35,788 bases of DNA. It comes from a virus. Location of the stretch: the IMG/VR virus record IMGVR_UViG_3300032293_001347, positions 1 through 35,788 of that record. One strand, 5' to 3'. A model generated the notes under the pieces. That model was not told the origin of the DNA. It did no database searches and worked only from the letters and a program-made list of their open reading frames with translations. Shown piece by piece: positions 1,145 through 33,578 of the stretch. A program made the translations under genes and the position numbers. Positions within the stretch are counted from its first letter, which is position 1; every line of letters starts with the position of its first letter.

Positions 1145-2032
1145 ATGACGCCCGACTCATTCAAGCAGTACCTAAACGCAATCGGTCGCTATCCGCTGCT
1201 GTCGGCCGAGCAAGAAATCCAACTGTCACGCCAGGTGCGGCGATACCTTGATCTGCGTGATGCAGAAGGCGAGCGCACCAAGCAGGAGCAACGCGAAATG
1301 CGGATTGGTGTTCGCGCGCGTGACATGATCATCAACTGCAACCTGCGGTTAGTGGTGCATATTTCCAAGCGGTACATCACCCGGCTGCAGTCCAACAACA
1401 TGGACCTCATGGACCTGATCCAAGAGGGTGCGCTAGGGCTGCATCGTGCAGCAGAGATGTTTGACGGTACCAAGGGGTATAAATTCTCCACCTATGCCTA
1501 TTGGTGGATTCGCCAAGCAATTACTCGTGCCATTGATACCAAAGAACGACTGATCCGCGTGCCGCAACATGCGCTAGAAAAAACCTACGCTGCAGCTAAA
1601 ACGCAACGTGAGTTTGCGCAGGCCAATGGCCGCACACCAACCGTACGCGAAGTGGCGGAAATCATCAATGTAAAAGTTGATGAGCTGCTGATGCTAATGG
1701 AACGCAACAGGCCGCACCGCAGCCTAGATGCACTCATCACTGAAGATGGCAGCACCGTACTGGATATTATTGCCGATGAGTACGGCATTGACGAAGACCA
1801 TAACCCTGAGGAAGTGTGCGAGCGTGTGGAGCAGCTGCAGCTGGCTTTTTTTCGTCTAGATCCCTTTGACAGGAATGTTATATGCTTGAACTACGGCATT
1901 GGCTCTGATGTGCCGCAAAGTTATGCGGAAATCGGCCGCAACCTTGGCGTATGCCGTGAGCGTGTTAGACAACGTGCGCAACGTGCGCAACGCAAGCTAA
2001 AGTTAATCCTGCAGCCATCACTAGCGGCGTAA
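1145..2032 (+). CDS. RNA polymerase sigma-70 family factor (group 2-like)
   Basis: Complete 295-aa sigma-70 protein. Region 1.2 lies at about residues 3-37 (DSFKQYLNAIGRYPLLSAEQ), region 2 at 56-131 with the core-binding LMDLIQEGALGLHRA and the -10-reading FSTYAYWWIRQAITRAI, region 3 at about 132-210, and region 4 at 226-290 with the -35 helix-turn-helix SYAEIGRNLGVCRERVRQR. Region 1.1 and the large nonconserved insert are absent, as in group 2/3 factors; length and motifs fit cyanobacterial SigB/C/D-like proteins. It would bind host core polymerase and direct it to a promoter subset, plausibly phage late genes. It is on the strand opposite to the structural genes and converges with the next gene, overlapping it by 12 bases. 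Host origin is likely but untested. Confidence 0.95.
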   Translation: MTPDSFKQYLNAIGRYPLLSAEQEIQLSRQVRRYLDLRDAEGERTKQEQREMRIGVRARDMIINCNLRLVVHISKRYITRLQSNNMDLMDLIQEGALGLHRAAEMFDGTKGYKFSTYAYWWIRQAITRAIDTKERLIRVPQHALEKTYAAAKTQREFAQANGRTPTVREVAEIINVKVDELLMLMERNRPHRSLDALITEDGSTVLDIIADEYGIDEDHNPEEVCERVEQLQLAFFRLDPFDRNVICLNYGIGSDVPQSYAEIGRNLGVCRERVRQRAQRAQRKLKLILQPSLAA

Positions 2033-17704: not shown

Positions 17705-18155
17705 TGGCGCTGGTCGGGATGTTGCCGATCAGGGCTTGGGTGAGGCGGCGGAGGGGAACGTCGGCGCCAACAGCGTCGAGGATTGTGTTCATGTTGAGGT
17801 TGAGGCTGGTTTCGTCCCATTGGCCGGCGGAGACTTGGCCGTTGTACTGGTGCATCAGGATGCCAGCGCTGGTGTCGTTGGGGTCGAGGGCCATGACATA
17901 GACCCGAGCCAGCCAGCGTTCGTTGACGGCGGTCAGTGCCCAGGCGCGGCTGAGGTCGTTGTTGGGTAGGACGAGGCTGGCCTCGGTGTTGTCGCCGCTG
18001 CGGTTAACGCTGACGCCGCTGAAGCCGAAGGGCAGGAAGCTGTAGCGCTCGGATTGGTAGAGGGCGTCGGCCTTGATGTAGAAGTTCTGGAAGTAGTAGG
18101 TGGTTGTGGTGTCGGGCTTTTGGAGGCGCAGGTAGTTGCCGAGTGCGATGTCCAT
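17688..18155 (-). CDS. Lambda L-like minor tail protein (155 aa)
   Basis: The gene begins at the stop of the tape measure gene (the CAT at 18153-18155 overlaps its stop) and precedes the K-like gene, the L position in lambda-type tails. Sequence includes ALGNYLRLQKPDTTTTYYFQ, PFGFSGVSVNRSGDN and a C-terminal PLRRLTQALIGNIPTSANV. No cysteine cluster of the lambda L iron-sulfur type is visible, so homology is by position and general DUF1833-like composition. It is a likely tail-tip component. Confidence 0.58.
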   Translation of the reverse strand: MDIALGNYLRLQKPDTTTTYYFQNFYIKADALYQSERYSFLPFGFSGVSVNRSGDNTEASLVLPNNDLSRAWALTAVNERWLARVYVMALDPNDTSAGILMHQYNGQVSAGQWDETSLNLNMNTILDAVGADVPLRRLTQALIGNIPTSANVRLR

Positions 18156-20539
18156 TAGATGCCGACCCTCCGGCGGGTGCTAGGGGATTGCTGTAGGCGG
18201 CGGAGGGCCAGTTGTTGGCCGCGCTCGGCGCCTTGGGTGGCGGCTTGGCGGAGGCCGGCCTGAAACTGGTCTGCGGTGACGTAATCCACGTTGTTGATGC
18301 GCTCCACGCTGTAGCGCACGTCCAGGGTGGCGGTGCCACCGGCACCAGGCGCACCGGTTTCACTGCCGTCGCCGCCTGCGGGGATGACAGATGCGCCGCG
18401 TGCGCCAGCTGCATACCGACCCATGGCGCCACGCATCTTGCTAGCAGGGATGACGTACTCGGCTTCGCCGCCTTCGCCGATGAGGCCCATGGTGGGTGAT
18501 GTCACCACGCCACCATTGGCAAAAGCTTGAAAGCCGCCGGGCCAGTAGGCGCCGTCTTTTGCGCCTTTGAAGCCAAAGCCTTTGGCAAGAGCGGAAAACA
18601 CACCCACACCATCCGACCCGCCTAGCGCACCCAATGCTTGGGCAATGCCGTACATGATCAGCATTTTGCCAATGGTCTTGAGAACATCGGCCGCCAGTCT
18701 TTTTAATGCCTCGCCAAGGCTTTGCGTGCCCGCCACTGCGGCATCAATTGCACTGCTAAACGCACCCGCAATGGTACTTGAAATGCCATCAAATAGATCC
18801 TTTTCCATTTGAGTTTTGGCATTAGCAGCTTCTTGCGCTTTTGTGAGCCTATTTATATCAGCAATCATCAAGCCAATGGCCTTTCTTTGTTCATCGGTCA
18901 GCGTGATTCCTTTGCTGCGCAGATTGTTTTCAATCTCCAAGACTTGCAGTGCTTGCTTCTGGGCTTCTGTCACAGCAGACACTTTGAGCCTTTGCATATC
19001 AAGACCAGCCAGCGCATCGGCAATCGCTTGCTGCTGCTGGCGGTATTGCTCTTCCGCCTTGCCTGTTTGCTCGGCAAGCAGCGTATTGGTCTCTAGCTCA
19101 AGCTCGAGCCGCTGCGTTTTGAGATCATTTGTGGTCTCATCAAAGGCCATGGCGGCCCGAGTCTTATCATTCTGAGATGCGATAATCTCTGCCCGCACTC
19201 CTGCCCGTTTAGTCAGTGTTTCATCAATCGCACCAATCTGATACTTGATATTTAGCAGCTTTGACGAGTATTCAACCATCCGCTGTGCTTGTTTAGGATT
19301 CTCGCTTGCAGCGGCTACATTCATCATTTTTGCAGTAGCTTCAGACAATCTCGCTTGCCGTTTTCGCAACTCGATGCCAATTTCACCACCAATCAAGTCG
19401 TTGATATTCAGCGCTTTGCCAGGTTTTTCTTTTTCAGCCAGCAATGCTGGGGTCGCAGGCGTGGCAGCGGCAGGCTTAGCTGGCTTGGACTGTTGGCGCA
19501 GACTGCCCAGCCTCTGCTCAAGTTTTTGAGCTTCTTTTTGCAGCTGCTGCAGTTCATATTTCATGCCAGGCAATGCTGGCTGGCCGCCACCCATTACCTG
19601 CCCATCTACACCTAAAATAGGGGCACCAGTTTGTGTGCCAATTCCAGCAGCCTCTCCCGCCTTAATAGCTGCTTGGAGTTCTTTGATTCGAGCACGTGTG
19701 TTAAATAATTGATCGTTGGCTTTTTTGTAATCAGGACCGGCCAGTGCTTGATTGATTTTGTCTACCACCATCGTGGCAAAATCAAGAATCTCTTTCAGCG
19801 CAGGCTTAAGTGTCTCGCCAATTGTCTTGGCGAGCATTTCCACGCCATCTGTCAGGGTGCTCCATTTGCCGGCCAACGTATCGCTCTGCGCAATAGCGCC
19901 ATTGGCATATTTGCCGCCGGCATTGGTCAGCCGAATAACTGCAACCTCGACCGCCTCGGCTCCGATGCGGCCTTTGCTCAGCGCTTTCTGGAACTCTTCT
20001 CCAGACAGCCCATACATCTTGCGCAGCTCTGCTTGCAGCGCAACACCACGCTCTTGGAATTGCAATAGCTCTTCGCCTTGCAGCCTACCTTTGGCCTGCA
20101 CTTGGCCATAGGCGGTGACTAGACCTTGCAGCTCGGCACCAGTGGCGCCGCTGACATCAGCCAGCCGCTTGGTGGTTTCGACTACCTTGTCGGCCTGTAT
20201 GCCAAACGCCTGTAGTCGCTTGGCCGAGTCAATCAGCTCGGTGCTAGTGAATGGCGTTACAGCACCAAGCTGCTGCAGCTCTTTGATGATCTGCCCAGCT
20301 TTTTCTGCGCTGCCGGTCAATACCTCAAGGCTGCGCGTTTGGCTTTCTAACTCAGCAGTCTTGGCAAATACAAACCTAATTGCTTGCAATGCACCAAAAG
20401 CAACCGCAAGCTTGCCAGCAGCTGCTGCAACGCCACTAAACGCGCGCTCAGTAGCGCCTGCCTGCGACTGCACCTCGCGCAGTTTGCTGACAGCATTGCG
20501 GCTGTCAACGTTAATCGCGACATTAGCGACGACAGACAC
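18155..20539 (-). CDS. Tape measure protein
   Basis: 794 aa from GTG 20539, with AGGGTAG upstream. Residues about 60-250 form the tape-measure domain (ELESQTRSLEVLTGSAEKAG, TPFTSTELIDSAKRLQAFGI, QGLVTAYGQVQAKGRLQGEE). Long Lys/Glu/Gln-rich coiled coils follow, then a hydrophobic membrane-active segment near residues 625-660 (TIGKMLIMYGIAQALGALGG) and a Gly/Ala-rich C-terminus. It sets tail length and is ejected during infection; the length predicts a tail of about 120 nm. It follows the chaperone T extension by nine bases, the standard position. Confidence 0.92.
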   Translation of the reverse strand: MSVVANVAINVDSRNAVSKLREVQSQAGATERAFSGVAAAAGKLAVAFGALQAIRFVFAKTAELESQTRSLEVLTGSAEKAGQIIKELQQLGAVTPFTSTELIDSAKRLQAFGIQADKVVETTKRLADVSGATGAELQGLVTAYGQVQAKGRLQGEELLQFQERGVALQAELRKMYGLSGEEFQKALSKGRIGAEAVEVAVIRLTNAGGKYANGAIAQSDTLAGKWSTLTDGVEMLAKTIGETLKPALKEILDFATMVVDKINQALAGPDYKKANDQLFNTRARIKELQAAIKAGEAAGIGTQTGAPILGVDGQVMGGGQPALPGMKYELQQLQKEAQKLEQRLGSLRQQSKPAKPAAATPATPALLAEKEKPGKALNINDLIGGEIGIELRKRQARLSEATAKMMNVAAASENPKQAQRMVEYSSKLLNIKYQIGAIDETLTKRAGVRAEIIASQNDKTRAAMAFDETTNDLKTQRLELELETNTLLAEQTGKAEEQYRQQQQAIADALAGLDMQRLKVSAVTEAQKQALQVLEIENNLRSKGITLTDEQRKAIGLMIADINRLTKAQEAANAKTQMEKDLFDGISSTIAGAFSSAIDAAVAGTQSLGEALKRLAADVLKTIGKMLIMYGIAQALGALGGSDGVGVFSALAKGFGFKGAKDGAYWPGGFQAFANGGVVTSPTMGLIGEGGEAEYVIPASKMRGAMGRYAAGARGASVIPAGGDGSETGAPGAGGTATLDVRYSVERINNVDYVTADQFQAGLRQAATQGAERGQQLALRRLQQSPSTRRRVGI

Positions 20540-20548
20540 AGCGCTACC

Positions 20549-20734
20549 CTACCGCCTTTGTTTCATTCTACGCTCTTGCTCTTCGTTTTGAAGCTCAAAG
20601 TAACTGCTCCATATCAGCAGCTCTTCTAGCGTTACTTCTTGATTAAGCTTAGCCAAGCTATAGCCAAGCTCCTTTGCAACGCCAAGCTGCAGCAGTAGCA
20701 GATTGTCTTTACTTAGCTCCTTCTTTAATGCTTT
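20549..20734 (-). CDS. Tail assembly chaperone T extension, reached by frameshift
   Basis: A 61-codon open frame with no ATG, GTG or TTG near its start overlaps the end of the G-like gene and continues to TAG at 20549-20551, nine bases before the tape measure GTG. It encodes NLLLLQLGVAKELGYSLAKL, then NQEVTLEELLIWSSYFELQ, and ends NEEQERRMKQRR. This resembles the C-terminal part of phage gpGT proteins. Relative to gene G it is +1 (equivalently -2). The shift must occur between the upstream TGA at 20735-20737 and the gene G TAA at 20709-20711. Candidate slips are AAA-A and AAA-G (tRNA-Lys re-pairing), with AAGGAG just before the stop. No independent start is plausible except a TTG deep inside. 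Confidence 0.75.
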   Translation of the reverse strand, partial: KALKKELSKDNLLLLQLGVAKELGYSLAKLNQEVTLEELLIWSSYFELQNEEQERRMKQRR

Positions 20735-21065
20735 TCATGTCCAGCTGCTCTGCATCCTCTGGATTAGCGATGATTGCTAGCATCATGCCTTGCAGGTCGG
20801 CATCTAGCACTTCTTCTTTAAGTTCAGCAATCTCGCCGGCAGCAAACAAACGCTTGCCGGTATCGTCCATTGCTTTAGTGACCAGCAGGTTTAATGCAAA
20901 CCCATTGGTGTCATCGCCGCCAGGCATCTTTTGCGCGCGCTCGCGTTCGGCCATGGTCAATGGCGCAGCGTAAAACTCAAACACGCTGCCATCAGTTAGC
21001 GTTACAACCCGCTTGGTTGGCGTCAGGTTGGCTGCTTTTTTGAGGCGAGCGAGCGCGGATCCCAT
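20709..21065 (-). CDS. Tail assembly chaperone G-like
   Basis: 118 aa, small and helical at the C-terminus, between the tail tube and tape measure genes as in lambda-type tails. Motifs include LARLKKAANLTPTKRVVTLT, FEFYAAPLTMAERERAQKM and DADLQGMMLAIIANPEDAEQ. It likely coats and recruits the tape measure during tail assembly and is absent from the virion. Its last nine codons hold the shift site that yields the longer GT product. An intrinsic terminator lies just upstream, so its transcription probably depends on read-through, keeping it below the tail tube level. Confidence 0.78.
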   Translation of the reverse strand: MGSALARLKKAANLTPTKRVVTLTDGSVFEFYAAPLTMAERERAQKMPGGDDTNGFALNLLVTKAMDDTGKRLFAAGEIAELKEEVLDADLQGMMLAIIANPEDAEQLDMKSIKEGAK

Positions 21066-21131: not shown

Positions 21132-21890
21132 TTAGGCGCTGGTACTGAAATCAAACGTCGGCACGCCAGCCGGACGGAAAGCAATTTCCACCTGCTGGGC
21201 ATCGTCAGGATTGACGTTCAGGCTGGCTGAGGTCAGCACTGCATCCATGGCAATGCTGCGGCTCAGCGCCTCAGTAGTGCCCTTGTCGGTGTACAGCTTG
21301 AAGGCGCAACCTACCTGCTGGCGCTGCAGCACGTCTTCCACCATCCGGTTGGACAGGGCAGCATCTTCGTTTGTCACGTAGACGGTAGCGGTGCCGCTGC
21401 CATCAGCAAAGCCAGGGATGTAAGCACGGAAGGGTGCATACTGTCCAGCGGTTTGGCCGATGGTTGTGACATCGATTTCTGAGCGTGAAATCTCAAAAGA
21501 CCAAGACTGCACTTGCCCAACGGCAGCAAAATCGGCGTAGTACACCTCAAACTCGTTGGGTGCAACGGCGGTGCCGTCGTCGGTGATGGGCAGGATAGTG
21601 CCGCCAGCAGCGGTCGAAACGGTCAGCGCACCAGTAGCGGTGACGTAAGAGAGCACGTAGTAGGTGGTAGCTGCATCAATGGGAGCCGGCAGCGTGCCAG
21701 AGCCGGAGCCGCCTGTCTGGCTGTTGATGACGCGGAACTTGACAGGATCACCGGCCTTGAAATTCAGGTACGGCTGAACGGTGATGGTATCGCTGCCGGC
21801 ATTTACGCCAGATTCGGGAAAGTTGCCGTTAGTGCCGGCGGGTTTGTAGTAGAGGGCGCCGGACGTACCGGACAGAACAGTAACAGCCAT
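21132..21890 (-). CDS. Major tail tube protein
   Basis: 252 aa. The C-terminal half has the tail-tube pattern (VQSWSFEISRSEIDVTTIG, GTATVYVTNEDAALSNRM, SLNVNPDDAQQVEIAFRPAG). Residues about 30-115 form an inserted module (FKAGDPVKFRVI, LPAPIDAATTYYVL, LTVSTAAGGTILPI) related in pattern to the one in the 194-aa protein at 7148-7732. It polymerises around the tape measure. Position just after the tail terminator and before chaperones agrees, as does a strong terminator directly downstream, as expected for a highly expressed gene. Confidence 0.8.
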   Translation of the reverse strand: MAVTVLSGTSGALYYKPAGTNGNFPESGVNAGSDTITVQPYLNFKAGDPVKFRVINSQTGGSGSGTLPAPIDAATTYYVLSYVTATGALTVSTAAGGTILPITDDGTAVAPNEFEVYYADFAAVGQVQSWSFEISRSEIDVTTIGQTAGQYAPFRAYIPGFADGSGTATVYVTNEDAALSNRMVEDVLQRQQVGCAFKLYTDKGTTEALSRSIAMDAVLTSASLNVNPDDAQQVEIAFRPAGVPTFDFSTSA

Positions 21891-32322: not shown

Positions 32323-33369
32323 TCAGCGTACCTGAACTGGCATTACCAGTGTAAGACCAGGCTCAAATACTACAGGAGTAGTTGAGCTGTTGCCGCTGAT
32401 GGTAGCAGTATCACCGTCTAGATGCTTAAAGGCATCAATGAGGTAATGCACGTTAAAGGCAAGCGTTGGCAGCGTGCCATTGATGGCAATGGACTCTGAC
32501 CCGCTGTTGGCCTCGGCTTCGGAGGCAATGGTAAGCCGCTTGGCCTTGGTGGTGAGCTTGACGACACTGTTGTGGCTGTCGGCGATAACGGCTACGCGCT
32601 CAAGGGCAGCCAGCATGGCAAGGCGGCTGACAGTAGCAGTGTGCTCGTAGCTGGGAGGGATCAGCGCTTGCACGTTCGGGTATGTGCCGTCCAATAACCG
32701 CGAAACGATCATGGTGCCATCAGCAAGGGCGATACCGGCTTGGTGGTTGTCGGCGGTGATGGTGGCCGGCTGGCGGATTTGCTGCAGGGTACGCGCTGGG
32801 AGAACGATGTCAAGATCTGCGGCATCAGTGTCGGCGGTACGAACGGCAAGGCGATGACCGTCTGTGGCCTCAAGACGCAAAGCACCGCTTGCGATGGTGA
32901 CATGCACACCGGTCAGCAGCTGCTTGGACGCATCGGTGGCAGCAGCAGGCAATACCGCCGCCAACGGCGCTGAGAGGTCCACAGCAGCGCCAGCAGCGGC
33001 ATCCACCACGGGCAATGCAGGGAAATCCTTTGCAGAGGCCACGGAGAGGCTGTAGGAGCCGCCTGCAGCAGTCAGCGTGACGCGTGTACCGTCCACGGCC
33101 AGCGACAGCGCCTCTGAGGCGTCTAGGCGGCCTGTGATGTCCGCTAGCAGCCGATGCGGCACCACGCACGCGCCGGTGGTATCCACTGCAGCCGTGATGG
33201 CGGTGCTGATGCCGAGGTCCAAGTCGTAGGCGGTAACACGGACGCTGCCTGCATCAGCGGCTAGTAGCACACCGGCAAGGATCGGATGGCCGGAGCGCCC
33301 GGTGCCTACAGCGCGGGATACAGCGCGTAGGGCATGGGACAGGTCGGACTGTGAGCAGGTGAATTTCAT
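32323..33369 (-). CDS. dnaN: DNA polymerase III beta sliding clamp (DnaN-like)
   Basis: 348 aa from ATG 33369; a longer in-frame start at 33411 would run into the upstream gene. It begins MKFTCSQSDLSHALRAVSRAVG, cut here to MKFTCSQSDLSHALRAVSRA, then HPILAGVLLAAD, YDLDLGI, the middle-domain ASKQLLTGVHVTI...ATDGHRLAVR, IVSRLLDGTYPN and the C-terminal LAFNVHYLIDAFKHL and VMPVQVR. All three clamp domains are present, in the order and wording of cyanobacterial DnaN. Length is slightly shorter than usual (about 366-390). It would load on phage DNA and tether a polymerase. No clamp loader or polymerase is in the window, so it must use host or out-of-window partners. Confidence 0.92.
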   Translation of the reverse strand: MKFTCSQSDLSHALRAVSRAVGTGRSGHPILAGVLLAADAGSVRVTAYDLDLGISTAITAAVDTTGACVVPHRLLADITGRLDASEALSLAVDGTRVTLTAAGGSYSLSVASAKDFPALPVVDAAAGAAVDLSAPLAAVLPAAATDASKQLLTGVHVTIASGALRLEATDGHRLAVRTADTDAADLDIVLPARTLQQIRQPATITADNHQAGIALADGTMIVSRLLDGTYPNVQALIPPSYEHTATVSRLAMLAALERVAVIADSHNSVVKLTTKAKRLTIASEAEANSGSESIAINGTLPTLAFNVHYLIDAFKHLDGDTATISGNSSTTPVVFEPGLTLVMPVQVR

Positions 33370-33578
33370 TGTGCAGCAGCTTCGGATAAGGCGTTGATGA
33401 TGGCGTCGCAATCAACTTGAAACGAACCAACCAATTCCAGGGGGATCGGCTGGGCGTCGTCTTGTGCGTTGTCGCGGATGGCATGGGCGTAGGCCAGTGA
33501 CTGGGTCATGCAGTCATGAAGCCGGTTGATCACCGGCGACTGCTTGGCGGGAATGTTGATCGAGTCTTGTGATGACAT
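33366..33578 (-). CDS. Hypothetical protein (70 aa)
   Basis: ATG 33578 (MSSQDSINIPAKQSPVINRL) is preferred over a start 13 codons upstream, because the upstream one extends further into the RHH gene. The product is a helical acidic protein (HDCMTQSLAYAHAIRDNAQD, then LVGSFQVDCDAIINALSEAA). The stop overlaps the clamp ATG (ATGA), so translation is coupled; a role in replication is plausible but undemonstrated. No family is recognised. Confidence 0.6.
   Translation of the reverse strand: MSSQDSINIPAKQSPVINRLHDCMTQSLAYAHAIRDNAQDDAQPIPLELVGSFQVDCDAIINALSEAAAQ

Follow-up and report, generated by a model that had tools for sequence, protein, structure and literature searches.

A tail assembly chaperone gene in the viral record IMGVR_UViG_3300032293_001347 very probably gives rise to two proteins, G and a longer GT fusion, through a +1 slip of tRNA-Lys at the sequence AAA_AGC. 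The whole stretch of DNA analysed, 35,788 nucleotides, is referred to here as the window. The features concerned, with the basis for each, are:

18155..20539, minus strand: tape measure protein gene, downstream (PF20155 TMP_3, E 2.5e-22; several PHROG tape-measure families)
20549..20734, minus strand: T extension frame, +1 register, 61 codons (translation; purifying selection; homologous T domain in all relatives)
20551-20549, minus strand: T frame stop TAG
20709..21065, minus strand: gene G, predicted tail assembly chaperone, zero-frame product 118 aa (open reading frame; phrog_20784, E 6.6e-32; fold match to 2OB9 and 3KLU)
20711-20709, minus strand: gene G stop TAA
20717..20722, minus strand: AAGGAG, the prfB-like stimulator of the original prediction, not counted in the signal (absent from many +1-register relatives)
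20730..20735, minus strand: predicted +1 shift site AAA_AGC (invariant AAA AG(C/T) in 119 distinct window-clade loci)
21132..21890, minus strand: major tail protein gene, upstream (phrog_1407, E 3.7e-8; phrog_158, E 1.4e-7)

The T frame opens past a TGA at 20737-20735, and its first codon is AAA 20734-20732. As the original prediction described, it overlaps the end of G and has no near start, and both peptides quoted there, VAKELGYSLAKL and TLEELLIWSSYFELQ, are found in its translation. The nine bases counted between the T frame and the tape measure gene are exact, with a GTG start at 20539. AAGGAG is present at 20722-20717; it lies 5 nt before the TAA, not directly before it as had been stated. 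As registers relative to G, +1 and -2 are equivalent for the T frame.

G matches phrog_20784, a family of unknown function, and more weakly phrog_344, annotated as tail assembly chaperone; a Pfam search of G returned no match, and a profile search of PDB sequences returned nothing relevant. The structure model of the GT fusion has a mean pLDDT of 80, with lower values in the T portion. The top Foldseek match of this model in the PDB is the HK97 tail assembly chaperone (2OB9, probability 1.00, E only 7.8e-3), and yqbN (3KLU) also matches the modelled G fold, so that the G domain is predicted to resemble HK97 gp13. The pair is flanked by the genes for the major tail protein and the tape measure. 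Gene position, the G fold, and an extension in another frame that overlaps the end of G without a conserved start are thus all those of a tail chaperone. The fold match and the synteny support the assignment made in the original prediction, and G and T are predicted to encode a pair of the lambda gpG/gpGT type. The BFVD entry D6PII1, a viral protein of 179 aa, shares 37% identity with the model over nearly the whole GT fusion; a single-frame G-T fusion may therefore exist.

The terminase is 81% identical to that of Synechococcus phage S-H1 and 79% to that of KBS-S-2A, which identifies the window as a cyanosiphovirus. A scan of genomes for prophage relatives found none. The window also encodes a sigma-70 factor with regions 1.2 to 4 (1145-2032, plus strand), whose relatives in cyanophages S-CBS1 and KBS-S-2A share 49-50% identity, and, within this 36-kb record, a DNA polymerase III beta sliding clamp with all three domains (32323-33411, minus strand).

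Seven scans of viral contigs supplied several hundred loci for comparison. None of the scored loci departs from the +1 register, whether in the window clade (235, of which 119 are distinct) or in a divergent marine clade (160, of which 89 are distinct, AG-345-A17 included), which supports the register originally proposed. In every scored locus of both clades the T frame opens exactly at the AAA of AAA AG. The codon that follows is AGC in 117 and AGT in 2 cases in the window clade, and AGC in 82, AGT in 4 and AGG in 3 in the marine clade. GAY ATG AAA AGY never changes where the overlap begins, whereas farther on the sequence varies, as do the stop codon of G and where it falls; relatives end G with, for example, AAA AGC GCT AAA GGC TGA or AAA AGC TAA. 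On the window-clade tree, the slip Lys codon shows no synonymous change, compared with a mean of 13.8 per codon over G and 5 to 19 at the other conserved Lys codons of G. The Ser codon after it shows 2, with few conserved Ser codons for comparison. By inspection, no other overlap codon can re-pair in +1 in AG-345-A17 (TTG AAA AGC TAA), and in locus L060 AAA is likewise the sole overlap codon that re-pairs after a +1 step. AAA_AGC at 20735-20730 is the sole candidate slip site left by the sequence comparison. The two slip points first suggested fared differently: AAA-A for tRNA-Lys is the invariant site, and AAA-G found no support as a site.

Most ribosomes would complete G. A minority would slip +1 while tRNA-Lys occupies AAA 20735-20733 with AGC as the next codon, and the tRNA would re-pair on the overlapping AAA 20734-20732, one base forward. 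The next codon would be GCA 20731-20729, and reading would then run through T to give a GT fusion of about 171 aa, with a predicted T part of 60 aa from GCA 20731. By likeness to lambda, G would coat the tape measure and T would recruit the major tail protein. The predicted junction, DMK/ALKKEL, is collinear with DVK/KLKQEL of KBS-S-2A, which would be made by a predicted -1 shift.

The T frame could also be reached, with one added residue, by a -2 shift as in phage Mu, where -2 decoding is documented (PMC5009743). The two shifts are inseparable by register alone, but at the only conserved site a -2 step would bring tRNA-Lys against TGA or TAA and tRNA-Ser against AAA, so that re-pairing is impossible. 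It would also insert a residue, whereas a +1 shift yields a fusion collinear with that of KBS-S-2A, for which -1 is predicted. We infer +1 because it gives perfect AAA-to-AAA re-pairing and a collinear fusion and -2 gives neither; the -2 route is improbable.

Codon differences within T in the window clade number 7091, 2141 and 18563 at positions 1, 2 and 3, and comprise 17074 synonymous and 5608 nonsynonymous differences (all summed over sequence pairs). Past the G stop, differences in the T frame are mainly at third positions and mostly synonymous, which argues that T is translated in the +1 frame in this clade. In the window clade T thus evolves under purifying selection. The T frame, kept in the same register throughout both clades, is far beyond chance. 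That T forms a gene apart, with a start codon of its own, or is translated by re-initiation, is very improbable. ATG or TTG codons do occur in the T frame near the conserved core in some relatives (up to 67 of the 109 distinct window-clade loci), but where present they are not at conserved positions, and no ATG, GTG or TTG precedes the core in 42 of these 109 loci, the window included, or in 68 of 83 marine loci. An own start would furthermore leave the selected AAA codon at the start of T unexplained. The extension thus has no conserved start codon of its own, in agreement with the original prediction. Ordinary gene calling would miss it, and it is unannotated in the KBS-S-2A and MED4-184 records.

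Another suggestion was a prfB-like signal, with AAGGAG stimulating a +1 shift just downstream at AAG_TAA. The last sense codon of G in the window, AAG, does lie 2 nt past AAGGAG and is followed by TAA, but this arrangement is missing in many relatives of the same register, where G ends with GGC TGA, GCG TGA or AGC TAA, and re-pairing from AAG to AGT would be poor. With both the Shine-Dalgarno-like sequence and the stop position varying among relatives, the proposal is rejected as highly improbable.

Some results speak against the AAA_AGC site. Of 680 Ser codons in the window genes, 278 are AGC, more than any other, so this is no rare 'hungry' codon. In-frame AAA-AGC shows no avoidance in the rest of these genes (3 observed, 3.8 expected), and RNA structure on either side of the site gave no signal (mean z near 0). 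The comparison suggests a +1 site that has no stop next to it, no rare codon and no structure that stands out. Joining of the two frames by transcriptional slippage or a sequencing indel is hardly conceivable: the slip site does contain four A in a row, but known bacterial slippage sites need far longer A runs (n over 7; PMC3711429), and recurrence of the +1 register in hundreds of contigs, many of them independent, argues that the T frame is not a sequencing indel.

Close homologues, with a mean G identity of 61% and a maximum of 77%, carry T in the -1 register. In about 160 loci, including cyanophages KBS-S-2A, S-H1 and S-2L, the -1 register is associated with canonical heptamers. The site is A_AAA_AAC in KBS-S-2A and S-H1, and probably C_CCA_AAG in S-2L and A_AAG in MED4-184. 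MED4-184, MED4-117 and the Pelagibacter phages HTVC202P and HTVC026P are also in the -1 register. Many C_CCA_AAA members of one -1 clade (L164-L243) have a GGAGG-like sequence a short way 5' of the site, a candidate stimulator that fits expectation for -1 shifts.

The predicted shift in KBS-S-2A falls at the Lys codon homologous to the slip Lys of the window. Counted by inspection from the base that follows GAC up to the T codon that both share first, the distance is 10 nt in the window and 8 nt in KBS-S-2A; the switch thus came with a change of 2 nt in length. In the tree, the window clade (support 100/100) joins the KBS-S-2A clade at 97/80, and adjoins or nests in it (96/81). These relationships point to a switch of frameshift direction within one family. 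Parsimony needs two direction changes; two origins of +1 are likely, but a tree uniting both +1 clades is not rejected (p-AU 0.34).

Within the marine +1 clade (L084, L244-L402), GAGGCTAAAGCC lies 6 nt 5' of the slip codon and is almost invariant, synonymous sites included. Its GAG and GCC are uncommon codon choices in the gene of this clade, and it could form a 3-bp GGC/GCC mini-hairpin, making it a candidate 5' stimulator; the upstream folding energy near it is not unusual. Tentatively, AAA_AGN may suffice by itself as a +1 motif for tRNA-Lys in these aquatic phages, and may have arisen twice, in the window and marine clades, each time from -1 ancestors. In the window clade a small indel would have turned a -1 into a +1 site and left the rest of the fusion undisturbed, and in the marine clade the upstream element would help to push the ribosome forward.

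As a kind, +1 chaperone frameshifts are already known. The AAA_AGC site is absent from the +1 sites in the parts of a review consulted (PMC5009743), and searches of the open-access literature found nothing relevant on AAAAGC-type +1 sites and no report of AAA_AGC or of relatives this close that shift in opposite directions; site and switch both look new. That phages differ in shift direction is established; the contrast here lies between close homologues and, for KBS-S-2A, at one shared Lys codon. This natural +1/-1 pair would let one ask what sets the slip direction, how direction changes, and whether selection keeps the G:GT ratio rather than the mechanism.

The window resembles lambda gpG/gpGT in having two predicted products, G and GT, with T made only as a C-terminal fusion, and in the order major tail protein, G/T, tape measure. 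Lambda shifts -1, with the extension in the -1 register at a slippery heptamer, whereas the window, at AAA_AGC, and all members of its clade are in the +1 register. In prfB and Ty1, as proposed here, the P-site tRNA slips one base forward. The prfB shift needs a nearby Shine-Dalgarno-like sequence and stop, which are not conserved in the window clade. Ty1 shifts at CUU_AGG_C, where the A-site tRNA is scarce; by codon use in the phage genes, AGC is the most frequent of the Ser codons in the window, and its tRNA may or may not be scarce in the host. Tail-assembly genes across phages use -1, -2 or +1 shifts; the chaperone of the haloarchaeal myovirus HSTV-2 very likely shifts +1 and that of Mu -2 (PMC5009743). 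Both share with the window an extension outside the -1 register; they are other phages of other hosts, and the comparison here is one of register. Two sources also place +1 shifts in the major tail protein genes of Listeria phages PSA, A118 and A500 and of SPP1, at CCC followed by a stop, with a putative -1 shift in SPP1's own chaperone (PMC5009743, PMC6316719). These are likewise +1 shifts in a phage tail gene, whereas the window has a chaperone shifting at AAA_AGC. The chaperones of KBS-S-2A, S-H1, S-2L and MED4-184 have homologous G and T, with a collinear fusion in KBS-S-2A, and differ from the window in carrying T in the -1 register.
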